Assembly (NCBI RefSeq): GCF_025753855.1
Contig: NZ_JAOWPT010000002.1
Location: 682,001-746,000, forward strand
Direction of reading: 5' to 3'
Source of the DNA: Mesorhizobium sp. ZC-5
GTDB lineage: Bacteria; Pseudomonadota; Alphaproteobacteria; Rhizobiales; Rhizobiaceae
Length of the DNA: 64,000 bases
Shown: positions 30,474-54,168 of the stretch, piece by piece
Layout of the letters: each line of letters opens with the position of its first letter
Position numbering within the stretch: the stretch's first letter is position 1
Position numbers and translations under genes: made by a program
The notes under the pieces: model-generated
What the model saw: only the letters and a program-made list of their open reading frames with translations
The model's database searches: none
Told to the model about the DNA's origin: nothing

Positions 30474-33017
30474 CTATTTGACGCGCGGTTTTGCCCGGCT
30501 GGTCGCCTCGGCCAAGGCAGGGTCTTCGGGCCAGACATGTTTCGGGTAGCGCCCGCGCATGTCGGACCGCACGTCGGCCCACGAGCCGCGCCAGAACCCG
30601 GGCAGGTCGCGCGTCGTCTGGATCGGCCGATGCGCCGGCGACAAAAGTTCGAGCGTCAGCGGCACGGTGCCGTTGACGATCGCGGGATGGCTGGTCAGTC
30701 CGAACAGTTCCTGCACGCGGATCGCCAGCACCGGCCATTCGCCGTCGTAGCGGATCGGCACGTGGCTGCCCGACGGCGCGTCGAAATGGGTGGGCGCCAG
30801 CTGGCCGATCCGGCGCTGCAGGTCATGCGGCACAAGCGACATCAGCGCGGCGTGCAGGGCGCCGGCATCGATCCGTGCGAAGCTGGCTTCACCGGAGAGG
30901 AACGGCAGCAGCCAGTTGTCCAGGCTGGCGACCAGCGCATCGTCGGAGACATCCGGCCATGGCGCGCCGAGGCCGCGATGCAGCCAGGACAGGCGCCGGC
31001 GCAGCGTTTCCGTGTCCTTGCTCCAGGGCAGCAGGGAAAGGCCGTGCTGGCGAAGGGCGTCGAGAATGGCGCGGTCCACCTCCGGACCTTTCGGTGCCGG
31101 CAGCATGCGCTCGGACAGGACGATGGTGCCGAGCCGCACGGTTTCGCGCACGCGCACGGCACGCTTCTCCGCGTCGAAGGCGGTTTCGGTGCGGCGTTCG
31201 AGATGGGCCGCGAGCGCGGTGCGGATTTCCTCCTCGCCGACCATGGCGGCGGAAGCGATGCGCGCGTTCTGCGCCTTGCCTTGCAGGTCGGCGACGACGA
31301 GGAACGCAGCGCCCGCCAGCGGATCGGCGGCGTCGACCGTCGCGCCGCGACCATTGGCGAGAACGAAGCGCCCGCGCTCGCCGCGCGCCTTGGCGACGCG
31401 GTCGGGGAAGGCGTGGAGGAGGAGGGCGCCGGCACCTTCACCCTCCCCCTTGAGGGGAGGGTCGATCCGCGCAGCGGAGCGGGGTGGGGGTTCTAGATTA
31501 CCCCCACCCGCGCCTTCGGCACGACCTCCCCTCAAGGGGGAGGTGGCCTGACGCGCCAATCTCTCCGCCAACTGCCGCGCCGCCACCGCACGCGGAGCCC
31601 TTTCGGCGCGAAACCGCATCAGCCGTCGCTCGAGGTCGGCGCTGTCGCCGCCCAGACCGCGCTCGGTCAGAAGCACCGCCAGCATCGCGGCGTCGGCGGC
31701 GTGGCCGGATTTGGCCGCCTCGGCGACCATGTGGGCAAGGCGAACGGGCAAAGCGAGCTTGCGCATCGCCGCGCCCGTTTCGGTCAGCCGTCCGTCCGCG
31801 CCGACGGCGCCGAGTTCGATGAGGAGCGATCTTGCCTCGGCAAGCGCGGCGGCCGGCGGCGGGTCGAGGAAGGCGAGCGCGGACGGATCGGCGACGCCGA
31901 AGGCGGCGCAATCGAGCACGAGGCCGGAAAGGTCGGCCTCCAGGATTTCCGGCGGGGTGAAGGCGGGTAGTGCGGCGGTCTGTTCCGCGCGCCACAACCT
32001 TATCGCAACGCCCGGCTGCGTGCGCCCGGCGCGGCCGGCGCGCTGTTCGGCGGAGGCGCGCGACACGCGCACGGTTTCGAGGCGGGTGAGGCCCGTCGCC
32101 GGCTCGTATTTCGGCAGCCGCGACAGGCCGGAATCGATGACGACGCGCACGCCGTCGATGGTGATCGAGGTCTCGGCGATCGAGGTGGCCAGCACCACCT
32201 TGCGTCGCCCGGCCGGCGCCGGCCTGATCGCCGCATCCTGTGCCTTGCCGTCCAGCATGCCGTAGAGCCGCACGACATCGGTGTCCGCGCCGATCCGACC
32301 CTCGAGCCGCTCGGCGGTGCGCTCGATCTCGCGCTGGCCGGGCAGGAAGGCGAGCACGCTGCCGGTTTCATCGGCCAGCACATCGCGGATAGCTTTTGCC
32401 ATGGCGTCTTCGATCGGCGTGCCGGCGGCGCGCTCGGCATAACGCAGCTCGACCGGGAAGCTGCGGCCCTCGCTTTCGATGACGGGTGCCGCACCAAGCA
32501 GCCTTGCCACGCGGGCGCCGTCGAGCGTCGCCGACATCACGAGCAAGCGGAGATCGGGCCGCAGCGCGCTTTGCACGTCGAGCGCCAACGCCAGCCCGAA
32601 ATCGCCGTCGAGCGACCGTTCGTGGAACTCGTCGAAAATGACCGCCGAGACGCCGGCGAGTTCGGGATCGTCGAGGATCATGCGGGCCAGGACGCCTTCG
32701 GTGACGACCATGATGCGGGTCTTGGCCGAGACGCGGTTTTCCATGCGCATGGCGTAGCCGACGGTGCCGCCCGGCTCCTCGCCGAGCAGCGAAGCCATGC
32801 GGCGGGCGGCGGCACGGGCCGCCAGGCGGCGCGGCTCCAGAAGGACGATGCGGCCGCTGCCGAGCCATGCCGCGTCGAGCAGCGCCAGCGGCACCAGCGT
32901 CGTCTTGCCGGCGCCGGGCGGCGCCACCAGCACGGCGCTGCTGTTGCTTTCCAACGCGCTGGCGAGCGCCGGCAGGACGGCAGTGACCGGGAGTTCGGGC
33001 AGGTCGGCCATTGTCAT
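30474..33017 (-). CDS. hrpB: ATP-dependent helicase HrpB with a repeat-derived insert
   Basis: An 847-residue DEAH-box-like helicase: Walker A APPGAGKTT (32-40), DEFH (129-132), SAT motif, and QRAGRAGR. Native HrpB is a little over 800 residues; here about 38 residues (489-527) come from a palindromic repeat at 31438-31553 read in frame (TSPLRGGRAEGAGGGN...). They lie in the linker just before the C-terminal HrpB domain (LLLHAFPDRVAKARGERGRF). The frame stays open, so the gene is probably functional. The start overlaps the end of the ABC ATPase gene by 4 bp. Confidence 0.92.
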   Translation of the reverse strand: MTMADLPELPVTAVLPALASALESNSSAVLVAPPGAGKTTLVPLALLDAAWLGSGRIVLLEPRRLAARAAARRMASLLGEEPGGTVGYAMRMENRVSAKTRIMVVTEGVLARMILDDPELAGVSAVIFDEFHERSLDGDFGLALALDVQSALRPDLRLLVMSATLDGARVARLLGAAPVIESEGRSFPVELRYAERAAGTPIEDAMAKAIRDVLADETGSVLAFLPGQREIERTAERLEGRIGADTDVVRLYGMLDGKAQDAAIRPAPAGRRKVVLATSIAETSITIDGVRVVIDSGLSRLPKYEPATGLTRLETVRVSRASAEQRAGRAGRTQPGVAIRLWRAEQTAALPAFTPPEILEADLSGLVLDCAAFGVADPSALAFLDPPPAAALAEARSLLIELGAVGADGRLTETGAAMRKLALPVRLAHMVAEAAKSGHAADAAMLAVLLTERGLGGDSADLERRLMRFRAERAPRAVAARQLAERLARQATSPLRGGRAEGAGGGNLEPPPRSAARIDPPLKGEGEGAGALLLHAFPDRVAKARGERGRFVLANGRGATVDAADPLAGAAFLVVADLQGKAQNARIASAAMVGEEEIRTALAAHLERRTETAFDAEKRAVRVRETVRLGTIVLSERMLPAPKGPEVDRAILDALRQHGLSLLPWSKDTETLRRRLSWLHRGLGAPWPDVSDDALVASLDNWLLPFLSGEASFARIDAGALHAALMSLVPHDLQRRIGQLAPTHFDAPSGSHVPIRYDGEWPVLAIRVQELFGLTSHPAIVNGTVPLTLELLSPAHRPIQTTRDLPGFWRGSWADVRSDMRGRYPKHVWPEDPALAEATSRAKPRVK
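31438..31553. repeat. Paired palindromic repeat, family A copy 2, inside hrpB
   Basis: Arms CCTCCCCCTTGAGGGGAGG (31442-31460) and CCTCCCCTCAAGGGGGAGG (31526-31544), with the GGTGGGGG/CCCCCACC sub-arms between them, form a paired element wholly inside the hrpB frame. Its length keeps the frame open. Confidence 0.88.
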
Positions 33018-33655
33018 TCGCCGATCCGGATCACCGGCCCAAGCGCTGCCTCGGCGTCCGCCTCGTCATGGGTGACGAGGATGACCGGCAGGCCGGCCTC
33101 GCGCGCCCTAACGAAGACCAGTTCGCGCATCTGCCGGCGCAGATCCTGGTCGAGCTTCGAGAACGGTTCGTCGAGCAGCAGCGCGCGCGGCGCCGAGAGC
33201 AGCACGCGGGCCAGTGCGACGCGGGCCTTCTGGCCGCCCGACAGCGTATCCGGGTCGCGGTTGCCCATACCGTCGAGGCCGACGCCGGCGAGGGCTGCAT
33301 CGGCCCGCGCCAGACGGGCTGCCTTGCCTTTCACATGCGACGGGATCGCGAAGACGAGGTTGCCGGCTACCGACATGTGCGGAAAGAGCAGCGGGTCCTG
33401 GAACAGGATGCCGGCATGGCGCTCCTCGGCCGGCAGCACGGTGAGATCGACGCCGTCGGCCAGAACCCTGCCGCTTGCCTGGAATGCCGGGTCGAGGAAG
33501 CCGCCAATATAGGCGAGCAGGGTCGACTTGCCGGAGCCCGAAGGCCCCATGACGGTGAGCACGCCGCCGGGCAGGACATGATGCGTCAGCGCCAGCAGGA
33601 CGCGGCCGTTCAGCGCGATCGACACGGTGTCGAGGAAAAGGCCCTTGTCCGTCAT
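33014..33655 (-). CDS. ABC transporter ATP-binding protein (YnjD-like)
   Basis: A 213-residue ATPase: Walker A GPSGSGKST (37-45), signature LSGGQKARVALARVL, Walker B ALLLDEPFSKLD and switch His in VTHD. Short length and sequence style match YnjD of the YnjBCD importer. It is third in the ynjB-ynjC-ynjD order on this strand, 17 bp after the permease gene. Confidence 0.9.
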   Translation of the reverse strand: MTDKGLFLDTVSIALNGRVLLALTHHVLPGGVLTVMGPSGSGKSTLLAYIGGFLDPAFQASGRVLADGVDLTVLPAEERHAGILFQDPLLFPHMSVAGNLVFAIPSHVKGKAARLARADAALAGVGLDGMGNRDPDTLSGGQKARVALARVLLSAPRALLLDEPFSKLDQDLRRQMRELVFVRAREAGLPVILVTHDEADAEAALGPVIRIGE

Positions 33656-33671
33656 TCTTTCCGTTGGCTGC

Positions 33672-35351
33672 TCAGGCGTGCATGGCGCGGCGATGCCGGA
33701 ATATCAGCGCGGGCAAGAGCGTGGCAACCAGAAAGCCGAGGGCCGGCAGCAGCATCTGCAGGAAGGCGTAGACGCCGATGACCCGCCGGTTGCCGCCCGA
33801 AGCCAGCGCCACCGCGTCGGTGGTGATGGTGTCGAGCCGCCCGGCGCCGATCAGCACCGTCGGCAGGTACAGCCCGACCGAAACCGCGAAGCCGACGGCG
33901 GCGGCGGTGAGGACTGCCCGCATCAACATCGGCAGGCGGACGCCAAGGAGCGTTGTCCAGCGACGTTTACCAAGGCCCGCGGCGATCGCCTCATAACGCC
34001 GGTCGTAGGCGCGCCAGGGATCGGACAGCGACAGGAAGACATAGGGCATGACGAAGATCAGATGCACGAAGACCAGCGCCGGCAGGCTGGCGATGGTGCC
34101 GGTCAAGACGAAAAGCAGCTGCAGGCCGAACAGGAACGCGACCTGCGGCACGATCAGCGGCAGGTATATGAACAGCAGCGCCCAGCGCCTGCCCGTGCGG
34201 CCGGTCTCGTTCTCGCGCATCAAGCAAAGCGTCGAGAGCAGCACCGCGAGCAATGTTGCAATCCCGGCGACGATGAATGTCGTGACGAGCGGTTCGCCGA
34301 TGCGCGGCGCGGTTTTCATCCAGGTCTTCGCGCTCAGCGTTTCGGGCAAGACATCGGGAAACGGCCACAGGCCGGCGAACGACCACAGGCAGAGCGTCGC
34401 CAGGCCGGCGAAGATGATCGCGGCGGCGAGCAGCATCGCGGTGAGCCCGATACGGCGCAGCCATGCATCGCGGCGCCATCGCCAGCCGGCGCCGCAGGCA
34501 CGGTCCCGGATCGCGGCGCCGAGGCGCTCGAAGCCGATCCAGATCAGCAGGGCGGCGGCGGTGACGGCAAGCTGCAGGACCGCGCCGGCCGAGGCGAAGA
34601 AGCGCATCGACAGGTCCGGATCCTGCATCCATTGGGTCAGCCGCACCGCAAGCGGGGCGGGCGCGGTCGGCCCGAGGATCGCGGCGACGTCGACCACCGA
34701 TGTGGCAAAGGCGATGACGGCGAAGACCGCCAGCCGGATCTGCCGGTAGACCAGCGGCCACGAGCCGAACAGGAAGCCGGCTATTTTTCCGTAGCCCAGC
34801 GAGGTTGTCAGCGCGCGGGTGCGGGTCGCATCGACCTGAGGAAGGGCGGCGAGTGTGATCAGCAGCAGGAACGGGATTTCCTTGACGATCAGTCCGGCCA
34901 TCATCGAGAAGCCCATGGGATCGTTGACGATCAACAGGTCCGGCGGGCGCTGCCAGCCGGTGAGTCCGGGCGAGATCAGCCGCGCAATCATGCCCGACGG
35001 CGCGATCAGGAAGGCAAGGCCGAACGCCGCTGCCGCATGCGGCACCGAAAGCAGCGGCGAGATGAGGTGCTGGACGCGGGCGAATATGCGCGTGCCCGAC
35101 CAGCCGGCAACGAACAGGATGACGACAATGAGGGCCACGGCCGTCGTCACCAGCCCTGAAGCGAGGCTGATGATCGATGACATCCAGATGCCTGGTTCGG
35201 CGAAGAGTTGCCGCGTCGGCGCGAGCGTGAATTCGGCGCCGCCGAGCGCCGGCAGATAGCCGAAGGCGGGCAGCATGGTGCCCGCCAGGCCGAGCAGGAT
35301 GGGACCGGCTAGAAGCGCCATCGCCAGCGGCGGGCCGAGGCGGGTCAGCAT
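33672..35351 (-). CDS. ABC transporter permease, duplicated inner-membrane domain (YnjC-like)
   Basis: A 559-residue permease with about 12 hydrophobic helices, built as two fused binding-protein-dependent permease halves (about 1-270 and 290-559). Each half has an EAA-like loop, as in YnjC and in Fe(III) and thiamine permeases. It forms the channel for the adjacent ATPase and binding protein. A repeat element separates it from the binding-protein gene. Confidence 0.9.
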   Translation of the reverse strand: MLTRLGPPLAMALLAGPILLGLAGTMLPAFGYLPALGGAEFTLAPTRQLFAEPGIWMSSIISLASGLVTTAVALIVVILFVAGWSGTRIFARVQHLISPLLSVPHAAAAFGLAFLIAPSGMIARLISPGLTGWQRPPDLLIVNDPMGFSMMAGLIVKEIPFLLLITLAALPQVDATRTRALTTSLGYGKIAGFLFGSWPLVYRQIRLAVFAVIAFATSVVDVAAILGPTAPAPLAVRLTQWMQDPDLSMRFFASAGAVLQLAVTAAALLIWIGFERLGAAIRDRACGAGWRWRRDAWLRRIGLTAMLLAAAIIFAGLATLCLWSFAGLWPFPDVLPETLSAKTWMKTAPRIGEPLVTTFIVAGIATLLAVLLSTLCLMRENETGRTGRRWALLFIYLPLIVPQVAFLFGLQLLFVLTGTIASLPALVFVHLIFVMPYVFLSLSDPWRAYDRRYEAIAAGLGKRRWTTLLGVRLPMLMRAVLTAAAVGFAVSVGLYLPTVLIGAGRLDTITTDAVALASGGNRRVIGVYAFLQMLLPALGFLVATLLPALIFRHRRAMHA

Positions 35352-35382
35352 GGCGAACTTTGAGAGGCCTGCGCTCTATGTT

Positions 35383-35540
35383 GCCCCCCTCTGTCCTGCC
35401 GGACATCTCCCCCACAAGGGGGGAGATTGGCCTTCACGGAGAGTGGCGGCCAGTCGTCGACGCCGCAGGATAAGCGGCTGCGCTTGCGAAAGCTGATCTC
35501 CCCCCTTGTGGGGGAGATGTCCGGCAGGACAGAGGGGGGC
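35383..35540. repeat. Paired palindromic repeat, family D
   Basis: GCCCCCCTCTGTCCTGCCGG through ACATCTCCCCCACAAGG (35383-35427) is mirrored by the complementary sequence at about 35498-35540, with about 70 bases between. It is the longest and best-matched arm pair in the window and lies inside the ynjB-ynjC transcription unit. Confidence 0.88.
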
Positions 35541-35575
35541 GCGAAAGAGCTCATGCTTCCAAAGTTATGGGCAAT

Positions 35576-36796
35576 CTAGTTCGCCGCCCCATAGCGCCGT
35601 TTCCACTCTGTATCCAGCCGCTCCATCCAGCTTGGATGCGGCTCGTCGATGGCTGGGCCGAGTTCGTCGGGTTTCAACGTGGCGATGCCGAGGTCGAGTG
35701 CGTCGAAGCGCGCGCGGTCGGCCGCGTCGAGCCTGGAGACGGCAAGCACGGTCGGATCGCCCCAGACCTTGGGGTCCTGCTTGCGTGCCTGCGCTTCCGG
35801 CGAGAGCAGGAAGTCCGCGGCGACAAGCGCGCCTGCCTTGGCCGCTGCGTTGTAGGGAATGGCGACGAAATGCGTGTTGGCGAGCGTGCCCGCCGGGAAG
35901 GTGAACGAACGCACCGTGTCCGGCAGTTCGCCGTTCGCGATGGCGCTCGAAGCCTCCGACGGGTTGAAGGCGAAGATGATGTCGACCTCGCCGTCGGCGA
36001 GAAGCTGCTTCATCGCCGGATAGTTCTGCGGAAACGCCTTGCCGCCGCGCCACAGCAGCGGGTTGAGTTCATCAAGATAGGCGAACAGCGGCGCCGCGAC
36101 CTGTTCGAACGAGGCTTCGTCCACCGGTTTCTGCAGCACTGAACGATCGGCGACCAGTTCTGAAAGCACCTGCTTCAGGAAGGATGAGCCGACGAAGTCC
36201 GGCGGCTGCGGATAGGAAAAGCGGCCGGGGTTTTTCTTGGCCCATTCGAGCAGATCCCCAGCGGATTTCGGCAGGTCCGCGGCATTTGTCCTGGCCGAAT
36301 CGTGAAAAAAGACCAGCTTGGCCATGCCCCATGGGCTTTCGAGACCCTCGACCGGAACCGTGAAGTCGGTGCGGATTGTCGGCTTTTCGTCGGCGTCGAC
36401 AAACTTCCAGTTTGGCAGCTTTTCGGCCCAGCCCGGCGACAGCAGCAGGTTCTCCCGCTTCATGGAGGAGAAATTCTCGCCATTGATCCAGATCAGGTCG
36501 ACGGTGCCGCCGTCGTTCCGGCCGGCCGCCTTTTCGGCGACGACCTTGGCGACCGCGTTGGCGGTGTCGTCCAGCTTCACATGAACGAGCTTGACGCCGT
36601 AGCGCTTTTGCAGTTCGCCGCCGGCCCATTCGAGGTAGGAATTGATGTTCTCGGCGCCGCCCCAAGCGTTGAAATAGACGGTTTCGCCCCTGGCTTGCCT
36701 GAGCACTTCATCCCATTTCGCCGGATCGGGATCGGCAGCGAGTGCATGAAACGCAGATGCCACCAGCGCCACTGCGCCGAGTAAAAATTTCCGCAA
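35576..36796 (-). CDS. ABC transporter substrate-binding protein (YnjB-like)
   Basis: From the TTG at 36796 the product has 406 residues and begins with a classical signal peptide (RKFLLGAVALVASAFHALAADP). I chose this start because GGGAGG lies 5 bases upstream and the signal peptide begins there; an upstream frame adds 21 unlikely residues. The body has the YnjB pattern: TVYFNAWGG, INSYLEWAGGELQKRYGV, VDLIWINGENF, GLESPWGMAK. The substrate of YnjBCD systems is not established. Confidence 0.9.
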   Translation of the reverse strand: MRKFLLGAVALVASAFHALAADPDPAKWDEVLRQARGETVYFNAWGGAENINSYLEWAGGELQKRYGVKLVHVKLDDTANAVAKVVAEKAAGRNDGGTVDLIWINGENFSSMKRENLLLSPGWAEKLPNWKFVDADEKPTIRTDFTVPVEGLESPWGMAKLVFFHDSARTNAADLPKSAGDLLEWAKKNPGRFSYPQPPDFVGSSFLKQVLSELVADRSVLQKPVDEASFEQVAAPLFAYLDELNPLLWRGGKAFPQNYPAMKQLLADGEVDIIFAFNPSEASSAIANGELPDTVRSFTFPAGTLANTHFVAIPYNAAAKAGALVAADFLLSPEAQARKQDPKVWGDPTVLAVSRLDAADRARFDALDLGIATLKPDELGPAIDEPHPSWMERLDTEWKRRYGAAN

Positions 36797-36807
36797 TGAA
36801 GCCTCCC

Positions 36808-36832
36808 ATCCGGCTTTTGGTGAGAGCCGGAT
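36808..36832 (-). promoter_or_regulatory. Leader hairpin directly before the ynjB-like ribosome binding site
   Basis: ATCCGGCT and AGCCGGAT make a perfect 8-bp stem with a 9-base loop, ending next to the GGGAGG of the binding-protein gene. It could affect translation or protect the mRNA end. It does not resemble a known riboswitch. Confidence 0.4.
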
Positions 36833-36910
36833 TGAGCATGGCGGGCGAAAGCCGGTCAATGCACACTGCGGAGCCGGCGGTCACTTCGGTGTGACTTCGG
36901 GTCGGGGGGA

Positions 36911-38023
36911 TCAGCCGACTTCGACCCAGCGGCCTTCCTCGAACGAGCGCGCCATCGCGGCGACGGTGCGTTCGATCAGGATGCCGTCCTCGAAGGTGAC
37001 GGCGACGGCGTTTTCGCCGCGCATCTTACCGATCAACTGGCGGCATTCGATGATCTTCAAATCGTTGAAACCGAGCGAATGGCCGGCTGCCGGAACGAAG
37101 CGGTCGTAGGGCTTGTGGTGCGGCGCGGTCAGCACCGTGCGAAAACCCTGTTCGGTGGCGCGGTCCGAGGTGACGTAGAGTTGCAACTCGTTCATCCGCT
37201 CCTGGTCGTAGAGGATCGCGCCCTTCGAGCCGACGATCTGCACGGCGATGCGGCCCTTGCGGCCCCAGGCGGTGCGGCTGAGCGCGATATGGCCCGACGC
37301 GCCGTTTTCCAGCCGCATCAGGATGGTGGCGATGTCGTAGACCTCAACATCGCGTTCGCCGCCATCGCTCCGGCGGGTCGGGTAGGGTTTCGCCATGTCG
37401 CACATGACACGGGCAACGCCGCCGAACAAAGTGCGGATCAGCGACAGGGGGTGCACGCCGAAATCGTCGATGGCGCCCCAGCCGTTCACCGCCTCGTGGC
37501 GCTGCTGGAAGGGTGCACCCGGATCGGCCATGAAGTCCTCGTCCATCTCGATGCGGACGTGGTTGACGGCGCCGATGGCATCTTCGTCGAGCAGTTTCCT
37601 GATGTGGCGGATCGCCGGGTTCTGGATGTAGTTGTAGCCGAGCACCGCGACCTTGCCGGAGCGGCGCTGCGCGGCGAGCATCGCTTCGGCCTCGTCGAGC
37701 CTCGGCGCCATCGGCTTCTCGCACCAGACATGCTTGCCGGCGTCGAGCGCGGCGATCGCCATCTCGGCGTGAAACTTGTTGGGCGTGGTGATGGAGACGA
37801 CGTCGACCTGCGGGTCGGCGATCACCTTGCGCCAGTCGCCCGACGATCTGGCGAAACCGAACTCGACGGCCTTCAGGCTCGCGAGTTCGTCGTCGGTTTC
37901 GCCGAGATGGACCAGGCGGATCGCCGGCACGTCGCCGAAGACCGGTTTGACGGCGCTCCAGGCAATCGCATGCGCCTTGCCCATGAAGCCGGTGCCGATA
38001 AGCCCGACGCCGATCGTTTCCAT
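36911..38023 (-). CDS. Gfo/Idh/MocA-family oxidoreductase
   Basis: A 370-residue NAD(P)-dependent dehydrogenase: Rossmann start IGVGLIGTGFMGKAHA (4-19), the EKP motif in CEKPM near 99-103 with the catalytic Lys, and a DDFGVHPLSLIRTLFGG segment holding the active-site Asp/His. Such enzymes oxidise sugars or inositols. It lies downstream of the sugar ABC importer but beyond that operon's terminator, so it may have its own promoter. A role in inositol-isomer or sugar oxidation is only suggested by position. Confidence 0.88.
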   Translation of the reverse strand: METIGVGLIGTGFMGKAHAIAWSAVKPVFGDVPAIRLVHLGETDDELASLKAVEFGFARSSGDWRKVIADPQVDVVSITTPNKFHAEMAIAALDAGKHVWCEKPMAPRLDEAEAMLAAQRRSGKVAVLGYNYIQNPAIRHIRKLLDEDAIGAVNHVRIEMDEDFMADPGAPFQQRHEAVNGWGAIDDFGVHPLSLIRTLFGGVARVMCDMAKPYPTRRSDGGERDVEVYDIATILMRLENGASGHIALSRTAWGRKGRIAVQIVGSKGAILYDQERMNELQLYVTSDRATEQGFRTVLTAPHHKPYDRFVPAAGHSLGFNDLKIIECRQLIGKMRGENAVAVTFEDGILIERTVAAMARSFEEGRWVEVG

Positions 38024-38044
38024 GCCATGCGTCCTTCGCGAAGA

Positions 38045-38085
38045 GAAAAGGAACGGCCAGAGCCCGGCACGGCTCCGGCCGTTCC
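38045..38085 (-). terminator. Rho-independent terminator of the sugar ABC operon
   Basis: GGAACGGCC (38050-38058) pairs with GGCCGTTCC (38077-38085), with a further inner GAGCC/GGCTC pairing. On the minus strand it is followed by TTTTCTCTT. It lies 16 bp after the binding-protein stop. Confidence 0.85.
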
Positions 38086-38100
38086 TGGAAAGCTTACGCC

Positions 38101-39003
38101 TTATTTGTACTGTTCGGCGTTGCTCTTATCGACCAGCACGGTGCCGGTATCGATGACCGGTTCGATGGTCTTGCCGGCCTTCAGGTCGACCAGCGCCTGG
38201 ATACCGAAGCCGCCCATGTTCTTCGGCGCCTGCGCGACCGTTGCGGTCATCTCGCCGGCCAGGACCGAGGCTGCTGCGTCGGGGTTGGCGTCGAAGCCGA
38301 CGACCATGACGTCGGCCAGCTTGCCGGCCGACTTCAGGGCTTCGACCGCACCGAGCGCCATGTTGTCGTTGGAGGCGAACACGGCCTTGATGTTCGGGTT
38401 GCCGGTGATGATGTTTTCCATCGCCGCCTGGCCCTTGGCGCGGTCCCATTCGCCGGTCTGCTCGGCGACCACCTTCAGGCCGCAGGCTTCAAGCCCGGCC
38501 TTGGAGCCGGTGGCGCGGGCCTGGCCGGTCGACTGCGTGATGATGCCCTGCAGGATGGCGACTTCCGAGCCTTTCTCGATCTTGCCGCAGATGTAGTCGG
38601 CGGCAAGCTTGGCGCCGGCCGCGTTGTCGGTGCCGATGAAGGTGATGCCTTCATTAGTGCCCTTTGTGTCGACGAACACGACCGGGATGTTCTTGGCCTT
38701 GGCGGCGTCGACGACGGGCGCGAGCGCGTTCGGATCGGTCGGGGCGAGCGCGATGCCGTCGAGGCCCTGGGCGATCATGTCCTCGATCTGGGCGATCTGC
38801 GCGGCGACGTCGGATTCGGCCGGCGGCGACATCACCATCACCTCGACGCCGAGTTCCTTGCCCTTTTCCATGGCGCCGGCTTCCACCGCCGCCCAGAATG
38901 GGTTGCCGGCGCCCGGACCCTTCATGTCGACCAGGAACTTGTCGGCGAGCGCGCTGCCAGTCATCAGCGCGAGTGCGGTGCTGACCAAAATCAATCTTTT
39001 CAT
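38101..39003 (-). CDS. Sugar/inositol ABC transporter substrate-binding protein
   Basis: A 300-residue periplasmic protein of the RbsB (peripla_BP_4) type: signal peptide to about residue 20 (LALMTGSALA), then FLVDMKGPGAGNPFWAAVEAGAMEKGKELGVEV and the typical IAQIEDMIAQGLDGIALAPTDPNALAPVVDAA. The ATG at 39003 follows GGGAGGAA. It is the last gene of a three-gene ATPase-permease-binding protein operon divergent from the iolR-like regulator, so inositol is the likely ligand by context; ribose- or fructose-type sugars cannot be excluded. Confidence 0.9.
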   Translation of the reverse strand: MKRLILVSTALALMTGSALADKFLVDMKGPGAGNPFWAAVEAGAMEKGKELGVEVMVMSPPAESDVAAQIAQIEDMIAQGLDGIALAPTDPNALAPVVDAAKAKNIPVVFVDTKGTNEGITFIGTDNAAGAKLAADYICGKIEKGSEVAILQGIITQSTGQARATGSKAGLEACGLKVVAEQTGEWDRAKGQAAMENIITGNPNIKAVFASNDNMALGAVEALKSAGKLADVMVVGFDANPDAAASVLAGEMTATVAQAPKNMGGFGIQALVDLKAGKTIEPVIDTGTVLVDKSNAEQYK

Positions 39004-39087
39004 GGGTTCCTCCCGTGGAACTGTACTCGTCTCCGGTGAAGGGATCGTGCCCGGCGCGGAGACGGCGCCGGACACAACTTAAGCGAA

Positions 39088-40074: not shown

Positions 40075-40077
40075 CGT

Positions 40078-41855: not shown

Positions 41856-41859
41856 GGGA

Positions 41860-42037
41860 CCTTCCTCTCCCCTTGTGGGAGAGGATAGATCGACCCTGCG
41901 AGCGCTTGCGCGAGTGGCTGGTCGATCTTGGTGAGGGGTATTTGCGCGGAACTCACCGCTCACCAAGCGCGGCCGGCGGCTCGCGCCAATGCGCTCGCCG
42001 GGCCTTGCTATCCTCTCCCACAAGGGGAGAGGAAGGG
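41860..42037. repeat. Paired palindromic repeat, family C copy 2
   Basis: CCTTCCTCTCCCCTTGTGGG opens and TCTCCCACAAGGGGAGAGGA closes an inverted pair around about 130 bases. It lies between the convergent iolR-like and SDR genes and could also act as a two-way transcription stop. Confidence 0.85.
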
Positions 42038-42872: not shown

Positions 42873-42903
42873 TTCATTACCTCGAGTTTGGCGCCTCATG
42901 CAT

Positions 42904-43044
42904 GCCCCTCACCCTTACCCTCTCCCCGTAAGGACGGGGAGAGGGGGGACACCGGCATTGCTGCTAATCGCCAGCGTCGGAGACTAGCATCCGCGATGAC
43001 GCCTCCTCTCCCCGTCCTTACGGGGAGAGGGAGGGTCAGGGGCG
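42904..43044. repeat. Paired palindromic repeat, family B copy 1
   Basis: GCCCCTCACCCTTACCCTCT followed by CCCCGTAAGGACGGGG faces its complement at about 43004-43044, with about 60 bases between. It lies in the gap between two minus-strand genes. Confidence 0.86.
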
Positions 43045-44053: not shown

Positions 44054-44083
44054 TTCACTCCTCCATCGATGGAAATCAAAAAC

Positions 44084-44129: not shown

Positions 44130-44211
44130 ATCGGCATCTCATAGTCCGGTTGGCGGCCGCAGTCCACAGGAAACTAGGACATGGCCGCGTGTTTTTGGAA
44201 GGACCCGGCCC

Positions 44212-46137: not shown

Positions 46138-46157
46138 GGATCGCCGGGAGAGAGACG

Positions 46158-48005
<1,848 letters not shown>

Positions 48006-48008
48006 AAT

Positions 48009-48124
48009 TGCCCCTCACCCTTACCCTCTCCCCGTAAGGACGGGGAGAGGGGCGGCGACGTTGCACCCAGCTCTCCTCTCCCCGTTCTTACGGGGAGAGG
48101 ATGCCGGCAGGCAGGTGAGGGGCG
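48009..48124. repeat. Paired palindromic repeat, family B copy 2 (iolD-iolE)
   Basis: GCCCCTCACCCTTACCCTCT and CCCCGTAAGGACGGGG (48009-48051) face a complementary but more diverged arm at about 48075-48124. It lies inside the iol transcription unit, so it would be present in the mRNA as hairpins. Confidence 0.85.
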
Positions 48125-48160
48125 GCGTGCGGTGAATGCGAAAGAAACTGGAGCAAGGAC

Positions 48161-49078
48161 TTGAAAGCCAGACTGGGCATGTCCCCCATCGCATGGTGGA
48201 ACGACGATCTCTTGGAACTCAGCGACGACGTATCGCTGGAAGAATGCCTGGCGCAGTCGCGTTCGGCGGGGTTCACCGGCATGGAAAAAGGTCGCCGATT
48301 CCCGGACGATCCGGAGGTGATGTTGCCGATCCTGAAAAAAGCCGACGTCACGCTGTGCGGCGGCTGGTTCTCAGGGACGCTGGTGGACAATGACCTGTCG
48401 GTGAACAAGGATCGCATCCAGCCGATGATCGACCTGTTCAAGGCGGTGAACGCGCCCTGCATTGTCTATGGGGAGGTGGGTCGGTCGATCCAGGGCGATC
48501 GCTCGAAACCACTGGCCACCAAGGCGGTGCTTTCGGACGACGAGATGAAAACCTATGCGCGCAAGGTGACGGAATTCGGCGAATGGTGCGCCGATCAAGG
48601 CATGCCGCTCTCTTACCACCATCATATGGCGGCGGTTGTGCAGTTCGAACACGAGCTCGATGTCTTCGTGAGACAGTCCGGCGAAGGCATTCCGCTGCTG
48701 CTTGATGCCGGCCATCTCGCCTTTGCCGGCGGCGACGTGCTGCGTGCCATCGACAAGCACCACAAGCGTATCAACCACGTCCATGTGAAGGACGTGCGGA
48801 TGGATGTCATCGACAAGCTCGACCGTTCCCGGCAATCCTTCCTGGATGCTGTCGCGCTTGGCGCCTTCACGGTGCCGGGCGACGGTTCGCTGGATTTCGG
48901 CCAGATAGTGCGGAAATTCGCCGACTACGGATATGAGGGCTGGTTCGTGGTCGAGGCGGAACAGGATCCGAAGAAAAATCCGCCGCTCAGGATGGCGCAA
49001 GTCGGCCACAAGGAACTGATGCGAGTGATGTCGGCGGCCGGCTACACGGTCGAGACGAAGGGCTTTCCCAATGCCTGA
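48161..49078 (+). CDS. iolE: 2-keto-myo-inositol dehydratase
   Basis: A 305-residue TIM-barrel protein of the xylose isomerase-like family; it dehydrates 2-keto-myo-inositol. MSPIAWWNDDL at the start, YHHHMA (metal His), DAGHLAFAGGD and HVHVKDVR are the IolE motifs. It starts with TTG at 48161 behind GGAG; an ATG at 48179 is possible. Confidence 0.94.
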   Translation: MKARLGMSPIAWWNDDLLELSDDVSLEECLAQSRSAGFTGMEKGRRFPDDPEVMLPILKKADVTLCGGWFSGTLVDNDLSVNKDRIQPMIDLFKAVNAPCIVYGEVGRSIQGDRSKPLATKAVLSDDEMKTYARKVTEFGEWCADQGMPLSYHHHMAAVVQFEHELDVFVRQSGEGIPLLLDAGHLAFAGGDVLRAIDKHHKRINHVHVKDVRMDVIDKLDRSRQSFLDAVALGAFTVPGDGSLDFGQIVRKFADYGYEGWFVVEAEQDPKKNPPLRMAQVGHKELMRVMSAAGYTVETKGFPNA

Positions 49079-49120
49079 GCACAGCATTCCCGGCGATCCC
49101 GGTGTGACAGGTCCGGTCTG

Positions 49121-49312
49121 ATGGCGCAGGCTCCCTCACCGTTTCTCGATCCGCTCTGGCGGCGTATTGCGCTGGTCGCCTTCTGTGCCGGCTGGTCGGT
49201 TTTCGAACTGATCTGGGGCGATTCGTTCTGGGCCACGCTGGCGATCGGCATGACGGCGTACGGCGCCTGGCTGTTCCTGATCAACTACAAGCCAAGCACG
49301 CCGAAGGAGTAA
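49121..49312 (+). CDS. Small two-helix membrane protein in the iol operon
   Basis: A 63-residue protein with two hydrophobic helices (about 16-33 and 37-54) and short polar ends (MAQAPSPFLDPLWRR; KPSTPKE). It lies between iolE and iolB, 4 bp before iolB, so it is translated in the operon. No domain is recognised. Its place suggests a membrane role linked with inositol use, but no function is assigned. Confidence 0.75.
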   Translation: MAQAPSPFLDPLWRRIALVAFCAGWSVFELIWGDSFWATLAIGMTAYGAWLFLINYKPSTPKE

Positions 49313-49316
49313 GCCG

Positions 49317-50114
49317 ATGTCGAAACTGCTGGTGAAACCGCAAGGCCGCTCCGGCCGGGTCAGCCATGTGACGCCGGAAACCGCCGGATGGACCTATGTC
49401 GGCTTCGACCTGCACCGGCTGCAGGCAGGTCAGGCAGTTTCTGGCGAGACAGGCGGCAACGAGGTCTGCCTGGTCTTCGTCACCGGCAAGGGCAAGGCGA
49501 CAGCTGCCGGCGAGAATCTGGGCGTGCTCGGCGAGCGCATGTCGCCGTTCGAGGGAAAACCGTGGTCCGTCTACGTGCCGGATACCTCTAACTGGTCGGT
49601 GACCGCTGAAACCGATCTCGAGCTTGCGGTATGTTCGGCCCCCGGCCTCGGCGGCGGTCTGCCGGTCCGGGTGATCGCGCCCGACAGCCTCGGCCAGGAA
49701 GTGCGCGGCAAAGGCACCAACACACGTTATGTGACCAATATCCTGCCGGAAGGCGAGCCGGCTGACTCGCTGCTCGTCGTCGAGGTCATCACGCCCGGCG
49801 GCCACACATCGAGCTACCCGCCGCACAAGCACGACCAGGACAATCTGCCGGCCGAATCCTACCTGGAGGAAACCTACTACCACCGCCTCAACCCGCCGCA
49901 GGGCTTCGCCTTCCAGCGCGTCTATACGGATGACCGCTCGCTGGACGAAGCGATGGCAGTGGAGGATGGCGATGTGGTGCTGGTGCCGAAGGGGTACCAC
50001 CCCTGCGCGGCCTGCCACGGCTACGACCTTTATTATCTCAACGTCATGGCCGGGCCGAAGCGGACGTGGAAGTTCCACAATGCCACGGAGCATGAGTGGC
50101 TGATGAAGGCGTGA
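49317..50114 (+). CDS. iolB: 5-deoxy-glucuronate isomerase
   Basis: A 265-residue cupin that isomerises 5-deoxy-glucuronate to 2-deoxy-5-keto-gluconate. It has the family motifs TNILPEG, SYPPHKHDQDNLPAESYLEE (metal ligands His/His/Glu) and KGYHPCAACHGYDLYYLNVMAG. ATG at 49317 follows AAGGAGTAAG. Last gene of the iolCDEB unit and convergent with phnF. Confidence 0.95.
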   Translation: MSKLLVKPQGRSGRVSHVTPETAGWTYVGFDLHRLQAGQAVSGETGGNEVCLVFVTGKGKATAAGENLGVLGERMSPFEGKPWSVYVPDTSNWSVTAETDLELAVCSAPGLGGGLPVRVIAPDSLGQEVRGKGTNTRYVTNILPEGEPADSLLVVEVITPGGHTSSYPPHKHDQDNLPAESYLEETYYHRLNPPQGFAFQRVYTDDRSLDEAMAVEDGDVVLVPKGYHPCAACHGYDLYYLNVMAGPKRTWKFHNATEHEWLMKA

Positions 50115-50117
50115 GGT

Positions 50118-50888
50118 TCACGCCTCAGTCGACACCGTCAGTTCCACCCGGTCTGCTGCGAACCGCGTCTCGGCGAACTGGATCGGCTTGCCCTCTGGAT
50201 CGACGTTGATAGCGACCGCGACCAGCACGATGGCGCCGGGCGAGAGTTTCAGATCGGCGAGGTCGGCGGCGTCGGCATGGCGCGCCGACACCAGCGTCGA
50301 GTGGCGGAAATAGTCGTCAATGCCGAATTGCTTGAAGCTCGCGGTGATCGATGATGTCTTGGCATAGGCTTTTGCGAAGCCAGCAAATCTTTGCGCCTCG
50401 AACCAGCTTGTCGCGCGCGACACCGGCCGGCCGTCGGCCTCGCTCAGCGTTTCCAGGCGGATAACGTCGGCGCCGGCGGTGAGCTTCAACGCTTCGGCAA
50501 CGCGGCTGCTCGCCGGCTCGACCATATCCGCGAGCAGGGTACTGCGGCGGTCCCTGGTCTGGTCGCGCAGGCCGGTGGAAAACCGGGTGCGGGCGGAGAT
50601 GGGATAAGACAGCCGCTTGCGGCTCTCGACGAAGGTGCCGCGGCCCTGTTCGGCGCGCAGGACGCCTTCCTGCACGAGCGCGGCAATGGCACTGCGCACC
50701 GTGTGCCGGTTGACGCCGAAGCGCTCTGAGAGGGCGATTTCCGGCGGCAGCCGGCCGTCGGCGCCAAGTACGCCGGTGCCGATCGCCTGCCGCATCTGGT
50801 CGGCAATCTGCCGCCACAGCGCGACGCCGCTCTTTCGGGTGACGGGAGATTTCAGCCCAGCGTCGATCATTTCCAGCCCCCCTGTCAT
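50118..50888 (-). CDS. phnF: GntR-family phosphonate regulator PhnF
   Basis: A 256-residue GntR/HutC-type regulator: winged-helix N-terminus (about 25-95, LPPEIALSERFGVNRHTVRSAIAALVQEGVLRAEQGRGTFV) and a UTRA ligand domain (about 110-250, YPISARTRFSTGL...). It is divergent from phnG and the gap contains a palindromic site, so it most likely represses the C-P lyase operon and itself. ATG at 50888 or 50870. Confidence 0.92.
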   Translation of the reverse strand: MTGGLEMIDAGLKSPVTRKSGVALWRQIADQMRQAIGTGVLGADGRLPPEIALSERFGVNRHTVRSAIAALVQEGVLRAEQGRGTFVESRKRLSYPISARTRFSTGLRDQTRDRRSTLLADMVEPASSRVAEALKLTAGADVIRLETLSEADGRPVSRATSWFEAQRFAGFAKAYAKTSSITASFKQFGIDDYFRHSTLVSARHADAADLADLKLSPGAIVLVAVAINVDPEGKPIQFAETRFAADRVELTVSTEA

Positions 50889-50898
50889 CGACCCGTCA

Positions 50899-50926
50899 TG
50901 GACACGCGTTAGAAAGCGACTATAAT
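50899..50926 (+). promoter_or_regulatory. phnG operon promoter
   Basis: TGGACA (50899-50904), a 16-base spacer and TATAAT (50921-50926) form a near-consensus sigma70 promoter; transcription would start near 50933, immediately before the PhnF site and about 48 bp upstream of phnG. Confidence 0.65.
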
Positions 50927-50947
50927 TTGTTTAGTTGTATAGAGCAA
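50919..50947 (-). promoter_or_regulatory. phnF promoter on the opposite strand
   Basis: Read on the minus strand, TTGCTC (50947-50942), 17 bases and TATAGT (50924-50919) give a sigma70-like promoter that overlaps the phnG promoter and the PhnF site. Confidence 0.5.
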
Positions 50948-50954
50948 TAGACAA
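50935..50954. promoter_or_regulatory. Probable PhnF operator
   Basis: TTGTATAGAGCAATAGACAA is a 20-bp imperfect palindrome (TTGTxTAxxGCxxTAxACAA). It lies just downstream of the predicted phnG start site and over the -35 of phnF, a position that would block both promoters. Confidence 0.55.
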
Positions 50955-50980
50955 ATATTAGCGAATGCGCAGGTGCCCCG

Positions 50981-51451
50981 ATGAAAATGGATCGACGACA
51001 GGAAAAGGACGTTGAAGCGGCACGCAGATCGGCCATGGCTGCGCTGGCGGCGGCACCGGCTGACGCACTGAAGCGGCTTTGCGACGAAGCGGGTCTGCCG
51101 GGCGATGCACAGTTGTTGCGCGGGCCAGAGACGGGCCTGGTGACTGTGCGCGGCCGCATCGGCGGGGGCGGCGCCCCATTCAACTTCGGCGAAGCGACGG
51201 TGACGCGCGCCACTGTCCGGCTCACAACCGGCGAAGTCGGTCATTCCTATGCGCTCGGACGCGACCGCGAAAAGGCGCGGCTTTCGGCGATCGCCGACGC
51301 GCTCTGGCAGGATCCCGTCCGCCGCAGCGAGATCGAAGAAAAGATCATCGAGCCGCTGCGGGTTGCGCAACGCGAAGCCGACGCCAGGAAGCGCGCCGAG
51401 ACGGCGGCCACCAGGGTCGATTTCTTCACCCTGGTACGCGGAGAGGACTGA
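50981..51451 (+). CDS. phnG: C-P lyase subunit PhnG
   Basis: A 156-residue subunit of the carbon-phosphorus lyase core complex (PhnGHIJ). The family's GLVTVRGRIGGGGAPFNFGEATVTRATVRL and GHSYALGRDREKARLSAIADAL are present. ATG at 50981 follows CAGGTGCCC. First gene of the operon, overlapping phnH by one base. Confidence 0.94.
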   Translation: MKMDRRQEKDVEAARRSAMAALAAAPADALKRLCDEAGLPGDAQLLRGPETGLVTVRGRIGGGGAPFNFGEATVTRATVRLTTGEVGHSYALGRDREKARLSAIADALWQDPVRRSEIEEKIIEPLRVAQREADARKRAETAATRVDFFTLVRGED

Positions 51452-52059
51452 TGGTTGAGGCAGAAACGATCGACGGCAGTTTCGCCAATCCGGTGTTCGA
51501 CGCGCAGTCTGTGTTCCGCGCCATCATGGATGCGATGGCGCGACCCGGTACGATCCAACCCATCGACGGCCTCGCCCGCCCGCCGGCGCCGCTTTCGCCG
51601 GTGGCCGGCGCCGTCGCCCTGACGCTGTGCGATCATGACACGCCGCTGTGGCTCGATCCCGCGTTGCAGGCCTCGCCGGCGGCGAAATCCTGGCTTGGCT
51701 TCCACACCGGTTCGCCGTGGGCCGGTACACCAGCCGACGCACATTTTGCCCTCGTCTCGAAACCGGCGGAACTCATCGCGCTCGAAAATTTTGCACAGGG
51801 CACGCAGGAATATCCGGACCGCTCCACGACCTTGATACTGCAGCTCGACAGCCTGGTTTCCGGTTCCGACCTTTTGCTCGAAGGTCCCGGTATCGAGAAG
51901 ATGGCGATGGCGGCGCCGACGCCGCTGCCGCGTCATTTCGTCGAGCAGTGGAAGCAGAATCGCGGCCGTTTTCCGCGCGGCGTCGACGTCATCCTGGCGG
52001 CGCCCGAAGGCATCGCCTGCCTGCCGCGCACCACCCGCATCAAGACCATGGAGGCCTGA
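51451..52059 (+). CDS. phnH: C-P lyase subunit PhnH
   Basis: A 202-residue PhnH: GSFANPVFDAQSVFRAIMDAMARPGTI near the start and LEGPGIE in the middle. The ATG at 51451 shares a base with the phnG stop, so a longer upstream reading is rejected. It binds PhnI and PhnG in the core complex. Confidence 0.94.
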   Translation: MVEAETIDGSFANPVFDAQSVFRAIMDAMARPGTIQPIDGLARPPAPLSPVAGAVALTLCDHDTPLWLDPALQASPAAKSWLGFHTGSPWAGTPADAHFALVSKPAELIALENFAQGTQEYPDRSTTLILQLDSLVSGSDLLLEGPGIEKMAMAAPTPLPRHFVEQWKQNRGRFPRGVDVILAAPEGIACLPRTTRIKTMEA

Positions 52060-52060
52060 C

Positions 52061-53170
52061 ATGTATGTGGCCGTCAAAGGCGGCGAAGCCGCCATCGAAA
52101 ATGCCCACCGGCTGCTTGCCGACCGACGCCGTGGCGACCGCAGCGTGCCGGCCTTGCGCATCGACCAGATCGTCGAGCAACTGGCGCTCGGCGTCGACCG
52201 CGTCATGGCGGAAGGCTCGCTCTACGACAGGGAACTGGCGGCATTGGCCATCGTGCAGTCACGCGGCGACCTCATCGAAGCGATCTTCCTGGTCCGTGCC
52301 TATCGCACCACGCTGCCGCGTTTCGGCTACACCAAACCGATCGATACCGCCGCAATGCAGGTCGAGCGCCGCGTTTCGGCCACCTACAAGGACCTGCCCG
52401 GCGGGCAACTGCTTGGGCCAACCTTCGACTACACGCACCGCCTGCTCGACCCGGAACTCGCGAACGGCGGTGACGCCGACGAACCGGCGCAGCGGGAAGC
52501 GCCATCCGAACGTATGGCGCGCGTCTCCGAAATTCTCGCCCATGAAGGGCTGATCGAGGCCGATGGCGAACTGCCGGACGATCACGTCACCGGCGACATA
52601 ACCCGCGAGCCGCTGGAGTTTCCGCTTGCGCGCGACATCCGCCTGCAGGCGCTGTCGCGCGGCGACGAGGGGTTCCTGCTGGCGCTCGGCTATTCGACCC
52701 AGCGCGGCTACGGCCGCAGCCACCCTTTCGTCGGTGAGGTCAGGATCGGCGAGGTCGAGCTGGAACTCGACGTGCCGGAGCTGCCATTCGCGGTGCCGCT
52801 CGGCCGCATCCGCGTCACCGAATGCCAGATGGTCAACCAGTTCAAGGGCTCGGCCAAGGTGCCGCCGCAATTCACCCGCGGCTACGGGCTGGTGTTCGGC
52901 CAGTCGGAGCGCAAGGCGATGGCGATGTCGCTGTGCGACCGGGCGCTGCGCACCCGTGAAATGGGTGGGGACATCACCGCCGCCGCGCAGGACGAGGAGT
53001 TCGTCATCTCGCACGCCGACAACGTCCAGGCGACCGGTTTCGTCGAGCACCTGAAGCTGCCGCATTACGTCGACTTCCAGGCCGAATTGGACCTGGTGCG
53101 CCGCATGCGCGCCGAGCACGACGCGCGGGAGAATGCCGGCGCGGCGGAAACGCGGGAGGCTGCGGAATGA
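52061..53170 (+). CDS. phnI: C-P lyase subunit PhnI
   Basis: A 369-residue PhnI, the usual length. It starts with YVAVKGGEAAIENAHRLL and contains LQALSRGDEGFLLALGYSTQRGYGRSHPFVGEVR. PhnI displaces adenine from ATP with the phosphonate to form the ribose-triphosphate phosphonate. It starts 1 bp after phnH and overlaps phnJ by 4 bp. Confidence 0.95.
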   Translation: MYVAVKGGEAAIENAHRLLADRRRGDRSVPALRIDQIVEQLALGVDRVMAEGSLYDRELAALAIVQSRGDLIEAIFLVRAYRTTLPRFGYTKPIDTAAMQVERRVSATYKDLPGGQLLGPTFDYTHRLLDPELANGGDADEPAQREAPSERMARVSEILAHEGLIEADGELPDDHVTGDITREPLEFPLARDIRLQALSRGDEGFLLALGYSTQRGYGRSHPFVGEVRIGEVELELDVPELPFAVPLGRIRVTECQMVNQFKGSAKVPPQFTRGYGLVFGQSERKAMAMSLCDRALRTREMGGDITAAAQDEEFVISHADNVQATGFVEHLKLPHYVDFQAELDLVRRMRAEHDARENAGAAETREAAE

Positions 53171-54168
53171 ACATCCAGGCAAAAGACATCGCCACCTACA
53201 ACTTCGCCTATCTCGACGAGCAGACCAAGCGCATGATCCGCCGGGCGATCCTGAAGGGCATCGCCATACCCGGCTACCAGGTGCCGTTTGCGAGCCGCGA
53301 AATGCCGATGCCCTATGGCTGGGGGACGGGCGGCGTGCAGGTCACCGCATCGATCATCGGCCCGAACGACGTGCTGAAGGTCATCGACCAGGGCGCCGAC
53401 GACACCACCAACGCCGTCTCCATCCGAGCCTTCTTCAAAAAGGTCGCCGATGTCGCGGTGACGACCGAGACCGCCAAGGCAACGATCATCCAGACCCGCC
53501 ACCGCATTCCGGAGCATCCGCTGACCGAGGGCCAGACGCTGGTTTACCAGGTGCCGATCCCCGAGCCGCTGCGCTTCCTCGAGCCGCGCGAGACCGAAAC
53601 GCGCAAGATGCATGCGCTGGAGGAATACGGCCTGATGCATGTGAAGCTCTACGAGGACATTGCCAGGCACGGCCGCATCGCCACCACCTATGCCTATCCG
53701 GTGAAGGTCGAGGGGCGCTACGTGATGGACCCGTCGCCGACGCCGAAATTCGACAATCCGAAGATGCATATGTCGCCGGCCTTGCAATTGTTCGGGGCCG
53801 GCCGCGAAAAGCGCATCTACGCGGTGCCGCCGTTCACCGAGGTGGTCAGCCTCGATTTCGAGGATCATCCCTTCGAGGTGCAGACCTTCGACCAGCCCTG
53901 CGCGCTCTGCGGCGCCGAGCAGGTCTATCTCGACGAGGTCATCCTCGACGACCATGGCGGCCACATGTTCGTCTGCTCCGACACCGACCATTGCGAGAAA
54001 CGGCGGGAAGATGGGCATGTTGGGTATCTGGCGGCGGAAGCGCCCACCTCCCCCTTGAGGGGAGGTCGCGCCGAAGGCGCGGGTGGGGGTAACCCGCCCT
54101 CCGATTCACCCCCACCCCTAACCCCTCCCCTCAAGGAGGAGGGGAATTCTGGCAGCGAGGGAAAATGA
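53167..54168 (+). CDS. phnJ: C-P lyase PhnJ with a repeat-derived C-terminal tail
   Basis: A 333-residue radical-SAM enzyme that breaks the C-P bond. The four cysteines Cys245, 248, 270 and 276 (C-x2-C-x21-C-x5-C) match those of E. coli PhnJ exactly in spacing. E. coli PhnJ has 281 residues; here the native sequence ends near GYLAAEA (about 292) and the last 40 residues come from a palindromic repeat at 54044-54146 (TSPLRGGRAEGAGGGN...). The repeat keeps the ATGA overlap with phnK, so translation coupling is retained. Confidence 0.95.
   Translation: MNIQAKDIATYNFAYLDEQTKRMIRRAILKGIAIPGYQVPFASREMPMPYGWGTGGVQVTASIIGPNDVLKVIDQGADDTTNAVSIRAFFKKVADVAVTTETAKATIIQTRHRIPEHPLTEGQTLVYQVPIPEPLRFLEPRETETRKMHALEEYGLMHVKLYEDIARHGRIATTYAYPVKVEGRYVMDPSPTPKFDNPKMHMSPALQLFGAGREKRIYAVPPFTEVVSLDFEDHPFEVQTFDQPCALCGAEQVYLDEVILDDHGGHMFVCSDTDHCEKRREDGHVGYLAAEAPTSPLRGGRAEGAGGGNPPSDSPPPLTPPLKEEGNSGSEGK
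54044..54146. repeat. Paired palindromic repeat, family A copy 3, at the phnJ end
   Basis: CCACCTCCCCCTTGAGGGGA (54044-54063) with its GCGGGTGGGGG sub-arm faces CACCCCTAACCCCTCCCCTC with AAGGAGGAGG (about 54114-54145). The left arm is almost identical to the one inside hrpB. It lies within the phnJ reading frame. Confidence 0.88.

Follow-up and report, generated by a model that had tools for sequence, protein, structure and literature searches.

A stretch of 64,000 nucleotides from Mesorhizobium sp. ZC-5 (contig NZ_JAOWPT010000002.1, positions 682,001 to 746,000; hereafter the window) carries a palindromic element inside two unrelated protein genes, hrpB and phnJ. The hrpB gene (30474..33017, minus strand) encodes an ATP-dependent helicase of 847 aa, which is recognised by the TIGR01970 HrpB model with 1013.5 bits (cut-off 546) and has its nearest named relatives, at 76-82%, in Mesorhizobium, Aminobacter and their kin. 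The phnJ gene (53167..54168, plus strand, 333 aa) is identified by Pfam PhnJ with 495 bits, the match stopping at residue 281. The conserved parts of both proteins are covered by their family-model matches. The coding element of hrpB occupies positions 31440-31544 on the minus strand (105 nt, residues 492-526, peptide TSPLRGGRAEGAGGGNLEPPPRSAARIDPPLKGEG), that of phnJ positions 54046-54144 on the plus strand (99 nt, residues 294-326 in the tail of the protein, peptide TSPLRGGRAEGAGGGNPPSDSPPPLTPPLKEEG). The two peptides start alike with TSPLRGGRAEGAGGGN and continue with Pro-rich residues, ending in PPLKGEG in HrpB and PPLKEEG in PhnJ. The DNA half shared by the two elements comprises 49 nt with 98% identity and is inverted between them in window coordinates. 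An initial annotation had reported this palindromic element in the same frame of both genes, correctly so, since the TSPLRGGRAEGAGGGN peptide is present in both proteins and the element recurs across the genome.

Both elements share one layout. The 5' hairpin arm and a second, small hairpin (GGTGGGGGTAA) precede a short centre, beyond which an inverted 3' half leads into the other arm. In gene sense, the 5' arm of the hrpB element (31524..31544, minus strand) is the hairpin ACCTCCCC-CTTGA-GGGGAGGT, read as T-S-P-L-R-G-G, and its 3' arm (31440..31462, minus strand) the hairpin ACCCTCCCC-TCAAG-GGGGAGGGT, read as D-P-P-L-K-G-E-G. The corresponding arms of phnJ lie on the plus strand at 54046..54066 (hairpin, again read T-S-P-L-R-G-G) and at 54122..54144 (imperfect, read P-P-L-K-E-E-G).

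The consequences for the two proteins differ in part from those first proposed. HrpB does contain an insert, but its size is smaller than the suggested 38 or so residues: the linker measures 49 aa compared with the usual 22 aa in relatives, so that the protein has gained 27 residues net, the element having taken the place of about ten other residues found in relatives without it. The insert precedes the C-terminal domain, as had been stated, but lies far upstream of Pfam HrpB_C (702-833). In structure comparisons the HrpB insert falls within an unaligned stretch (residues 458-492 of E. coli HrpB, 6eud), and the PhnJ insert lies beyond the part aligned with 4xb6, which ends at residue 277 of 281. 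The insert had also been credited with rebuilding the ATGA overlap of the phnJ stop and the phnK start (54165..54168, plus strand). Two genomes whose phnJ has no element at its end (G001 and G002) possess the same overlap, which is therefore ancestral.

A dispersed repeat and its reading frames

With the hrpB element as query, 44 BLAST matches were obtained in the 6.34 Mb draft genome of the strain itself, some of them representing both strands of one site, and the arm pattern (one mismatch allowed) was found at 45 sites compared with none for the reversed control pattern. Because of this recurrence the element is not a product of chance. A peptide search added two full copies, again in this frame. 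One is located in a UvrD/PcrA helicase between VDEYQDTN, which is motif II, and GDDDQSIYGWRGA. The other is found in a xanthine dehydrogenase (XDH)-like protein, between its 2Fe-2S and molybdopterin parts. Related elements are present in XdhC, in a DMGDH-like oxidoreductase, in a cisplatin-response DNA ligase and, as a second small palindromic insert of the same UvrD protein (SSPRRGEGGSRSEP, L062 about 4619-4660), in the C-terminal tail of UvrD.

We read 48 arm clusters of this genome, in 38 stretches and the window, and 8 of them are within Pfam-supported genes, far under the assumed coding share of 85%. Clusters at the 5' edge of gene-like open reading frames (ORFs; L067, L069, L073) were not counted as genic, nor were 11 clusters in two multi-copy ORF families, of which one member each was scanned and matched no Pfam or NCBIfam model. 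In these two families (L062:7253-8350, L066, L070, L078, L098; and L071, L072, L087, L097) palindromic elements are in frame, and the copies differ in an insert at one point (after MAGL).

With about 100 nt, terminal inverted repeats and no gene of their own inside, the elements have the features of miniature inverted-repeat transposable elements (MITEs). Their two inverted hairpin units with a short interior are likewise those of dimers of repetitive extragenic palindromes (REPs), known as bacterial interspersed mosaic elements (BIMEs) or REPINs. No Rfam RNA family was detected in the window at gathering thresholds. Comparison by eye of hrpB sites with and without the element, which differ by about ten codons, revealed no clear target-site duplication. 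In plasmids, a search with the 36-aa peptide gave no match, for which the low-complexity filter may be the cause; a DNA search returned 16 records, none matching more than 80% of the query, and in two of these the best place is under an annotated gene (nirB and a short-chain dehydrogenase/reductase (SDR) oxidoreductase).

In each of the four full copies of this genome both alternative frames hold a stop. The first is closed by a TGA within the arm or, where the arm reads TGT instead (the XDH copy), by a later TAG; the second contains a TAA in GGGGGTAA in all four. Hence the four copies share one frame because stops close the other two. The shared frame is what can survive, and it is therefore no evidence of a special peptide. 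The full and related gene copies of this genome are stop-free in the host frame and have lengths divisible by three, and the surviving ones read TSPL(R/W)GGRAEGAGGGN. The proposal that only one frame of the element is open or tolerated thus applies to the four full copies, but fails elsewhere. In other genomes the 5' part is also read as LPLEGR (PhnJ, G105), LPLVGR (GlyS, L317), LPPVGR (UvrD, L206) or LPLAGR (HrpB, L148), for which reason a one-frame rule was rejected. The 3' half occurs in two or three frames (PPLKGEG, SPQGGG and once LPSRGR).

The phnJ element used as query has a match (E 1e-5 or better) in at least 66 of 151 genomes of the family; at most five candidates were scored per genome, so that the counts of this survey are lower bounds. 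Among the matches listed outside this genome 19 were full-length, that is, they span at least 90 of 111 bases. Thirteen of them lie inside gene-like ORFs and six do not (L309, three in L311, L313, L318), the sample having been collected with a gene copy as query, which may have enriched it for genic ones. The host genes encode GlyS (three sites), IleS (two), PolA, type ISP and MmeI-type methylases and an acetate-CoA ligase-like protein. Twelve of the 13 genic copies use the SP frame and one the LP frame. The genomes of L315 and L317 carry the element at one and the same GlyS site but differ in the frame in which it is read, and therefore sites are reused. One ORF of G113 (L322:708-4049), in which caprolactamase alpha and beta subunit models match on either side, carries the element's 5' half, read in the same frame.

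Recurrent target sites in HrpB, UvrD and PhnJ

The HrpB linker was compared in 82 of 83 rows; L131, in which an insert is visible, was left out, and L101 was dropped as a fragment of the G002 gene. An insert is present in 33 rows (linker of 33-82 aa) and absent from 49 (21-28 aa, plus L178 with 33 aa). Borderline cases are L178 itself, which was taken as empty, and L156 (26 aa, also taken as empty), which may hold a remnant. On a tree calculated by a quick method from the DNA of the rest of the gene, presence and absence of the insert require at least 19 changes among the 82 genes, 15 of them forced by starred branches; this count pools gain, loss and allele exchange. Three genomes of the genus display at the HrpB site this element, a different palindrome in the same place, and none, respectively. 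The HrpB of G002 has no insert.

A similar situation is found in UvrD. Matches were obtained in 144 of 151 genomes, the best-scoring 90 were read and 81 could be parsed. In these 81 sequences the motif II-III loop ranges from 20 to 118 residues and accommodates many different palindromes. A hairpin of at least 8 bp is present in 33 of the 47 loops with 45 aa or more, compared with 2 of 77 flank windows, 1 of 34 short loops and 4% of shuffles. Structure comparison places the UvrD insert between residues 237 and 243 of 3lfu. At the 3' end of the insert, the added codons (QQI) pair with the native NICC codons to form a palindrome of 8-12 bp. This palindrome was seen in L186 (the UvrD of this genome), L197, L198, L202, L203, L256, L257, L266 and L299, and by eye its two sides differ together in synonymous codons.

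For PhnJ, 99 genomes matched, 30 loci were read and the C-termini were recovered in 10. Three of the 10 tails carry an element, namely that of this genome and those of G144 and G105, where the elements are related. The PhnJ tail is therefore also reused. Repeats have taken the HrpB linker and the motif II-III loop of UvrD as targets, and different palindromic families have occupied them repeatedly.

The window contains six more palindromic sites. According to the GC content at codon positions, four are outside called genes and two overlap only short doubtful ORFs. The first (19176..19323) is a related paired element with its tails outward, between called genes. The other five (25547-25727, 35364-35559, 41860-42036, 42903-43031 and 48006-48052) belong to other palindromic families between or near genes, with arms such as CTCCCCTTGTGGGAGAAGG, ATCTCCCCCCTTGTGGGGGAGAT and CCCTCTCCCCGTAAGGACGGGGAGAGGG. 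In other genomes, arms similar to theirs occur in frame within HrpB or UvrD.

Two orientations of the element within hrpB

The elements in HrpB of Mesorhizobium fall into two classes, A (9 members) and B (14 members; n=23), which are one element in opposite directions. Treating them as two families was dropped, because each is the other read backwards. The A and B scores are clearly apart, and the tree requires at least 5 switches between the classes (shuffled mean 7.25; 13 of 300 shuffles were as low). Since the two classes have 9 and 14 members, an assembly error, conceivable for a single pair such as the one described next, is unlikely for the whole pattern.

The most telling case is the pair M. 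muleiense (L168) and M. prunaredense (L147). Their hrpB genes are 97.2% identical outside the linker, while the elements are 85.8% identical when one is inverted and 60.5% identical in direct comparison. The L168 element, of class A, scores 134 in inverted comparison with that of its tree neighbour L118 (class B), and no more than 84 in direct comparison with any A element. Thus, inverted repeats flank a segment which is seen both ways within one gene, between species. The simplest reading of the L168/L147 pair is an in-place flip between the arms, the frame being open both ways. Intragenic invertons are DNA inversions within a coding sequence by which the protein is changed. The putative flip described here differs from them in that it is seen between species rather than within a population, and in that both states are full-length.

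For the other 22 elements the direct match is best in 21, L139 being a near tie (91 inverted, 89.5 direct), and older A/B differences may therefore stem from exchange. It is also conceivable that A and B in general arose by separate insertions in the two directions, or passed between strains as alleles, instead of flipping. The 21 of 23 elements that are best matched by another of the same direction agree with this, as do the short and long linkers which alternate among close relatives in the manner of allele exchange. The inverted score of L168 with L118, far beyond any direct score within class A, and the near tie of L139 argue against it, and we regard it as a real but rather unlikely alternative.

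Interpretation, alternatives and known systems

We propose, with a probability of about 0.77, that the element is a dispersed palindromic repeat which is tolerated in frame inside protein genes, whose sites are reused and which can flip in place. The repeat would be REP-dimer or MITE-like and probably non-autonomous, with two inverted hairpin arms and a short interior. On entering protein genes, copies would survive only in a stop-free frame, with a net length that is a multiple of three and at a site tolerating a Pro/Gly-rich stretch, such as a linker, loop or tail. In the subfamily of the window the alternative frames are shut by TGA or TAG and by TAA, leaving the surviving gene copies of this genome with one common frame. 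The same protein sites are filled repeatedly by different palindromic families. As the arms are inverted repeats, the interior could flip in place, and since both directions are open, the gene would survive the flip. The data show that the repeat is dispersed, that it is in frame in intact genes and missing from relatives, that the other frames are closed in the four full copies, that sites are used repeatedly and that one element is inverted in place. That it transposes, that the insert is translated and tolerated as neutral, and how it flips are inferred.

Several observations weigh against this proposal. Stops do not force the frame in the wider set, where closure of the alternative frames is less regular than in the four full copies: among the long HrpB linkers only 10 of 32 have both closed, among the long UvrD loops 22 of 47. 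Taken singly, the alternative frames of the UvrD loops are closed at about the frequency of their flanks (36 of 47 and 28 of 47, compared with 77% and 48%). Many of the rows in these counts share ancestry. In the window's subfamily, the orientation relative to the gene is identical at 13 of 13 distinct sites in genes (p=0.00024), four of them in this genome and nine among L303-L319. Stops do not account for this bias, since each of the 13 gene copies from other genomes has at least one antisense frame that runs through the element without a stop. For the UvrD and GlyS copies, vertical inheritance is pooled with new insertion. The hrpB-type element of Mesorhizobium and Aminobacter was read at 30 loci of a longer list, 11 of which are hrpB. 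In the remaining 19, assessed from the GC content of codon positions, the element never falls within the interior of a recognisable gene; in six of them (L336, L341, L342, L349, L351, L352) it lies at the 5' border of a gene-like ORF, with translation uncertain. The idea that this element is commonly coding in Mesorhizobium was consequently not borne out. As a mobiliser, a REP-associated tyrosine transposase (RAYT) was rejected, since no Y1/RAYT transposase (Y1_Tnp, PF01797) was found in this genome and Y1_Tnp occurs in only 1 of the 16 genomes tested, this one included. In the AlphaFold model of HrpB, which is of poor quality overall (mean 62.5, pTM 0.34), residues 491-527 have pLDDT values below 50.

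The orientation bias has a place in a further-reaching view, which we consider unlikely. The element would then be a coding-compatible selfish repeat, made readable both ways by its arms, and the one-orientation rule would result from strand-biased insertion, either single-stranded or transcription-coupled. Linkers and loops would be its harbours (the HrpB linker, the UvrD motif II-III loop and the sites in GlyS, IleS and PolA), in which it persists, flips and remodels the same surface of essential enzymes.

Alternatively, the elements could be functional protein or RNA modules kept by selection in enzymes of DNA/RNA processing and translation, for instance because they supply disordered stretches for regulation or RNA hairpins that slow translation. 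The hosts GlyS, IleS, PolA, UvrD, HrpB and DNA ligase would suit such a role, similar hosts are named in PMC3733652, and the uniform orientation at all 13 sites fits as well. In addition, 17 of the 23 full copies of the window's subfamily are genic, though in a sample found by similarity to a gene copy. However, no insert is present in 49 of 82 HrpB rows and 7 of the 10 PhnJ tails read, and the UvrD loop is shorter than 45 aa in 34 of 81 sequences. Relatives differ in the interior of the element or have it inverted, and PhnJ and the XDH-like and DMGDH-like proteins do not belong to these functional classes. We therefore consider selection for such a module quite improbable. That the insert is spliced, cleaved or skipped by ribosomes after transcription, so that the frame is irrelevant, is hardly credible: hairpins of at least 8 bp do flank or fill the insert, but the four full copies and the related ones are stop-free with lengths divisible by three, and removal needs neither.

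Returning to the tolerated in-frame repeat, elements of this kind are already known. Rickettsia palindromic elements (RPEs) are described in a MITE review (PMC10969869) as palindromes of about 150 bp that are in frame in unrelated genes. The likeness to them noted in the initial annotation holds in kind, by description, as a dispersed palindromic repeat that is also in frame inside genes. The present element differs in being GC-rich, in coming from another bacterial group, in occurring in both orientations in one gene and in one presumed in-place inversion.

Closer counterparts are the intragenic REPs of the GTAG and CGTC super-families (Di Nocera et al. 2013, PMC3733652). According to that paper, REP dimers reside inside DNA-repair, tRNA-synthetase and helicase genes including UvrD/Rep, and two Xanthomonas carry different REPs at about the same recB site. 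Both the kinds of hosts and the different palindromes at one site resemble our findings. The paper further describes CGTC-type REPs as mostly alphaproteobacterial and as lacking a transposase association, with a tag before an 8-9 bp stem that starts with two A-T pairs and is followed by a CCA tail. The 5' arm in phnJ (GCCC-ACCTCCCC-CTTGA-GGGGAGGT-CGC), compared by eye with this description and for this arm alone, differs in having neither a CGTC, TGTC or CCTC tag nor a CCA tail. In contrast to the 2013 paper, recurrence was counted here over 82 HrpB and 81 UvrD sequences. The initial annotation knew of no description in a rhizobial background; Mesorhizobium is absent from the main text of PMC3733652, in which in-frame genic REPs are described for other bacteria, including alphaproteobacteria. 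Coding palindromes are also reported in PMC6649704, as inverted repeats in translated genes of Nematomorpha mitochondria; there both arms encode conserved residues, whereas here the repeat is an added element. In titles and abstract openings of mostly open-access literature we recognised no account of coding palindromes in Mesorhizobium or of their inversion. The new points are the repeated use of sites and the inversion within a gene.

These findings extend beyond Rickettsia the picture of repeats in protein genes: such repeats reoccupy the same sites of core enzymes, and they can invert within a gene without breaking it. This opens the testable question of whether selfish DNA supplies core proteins with flexible loops. 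It is also a warning that inserts in rhizobial UvrD, HrpB or GlyS can be derived from repeats rather than representing conserved domains.

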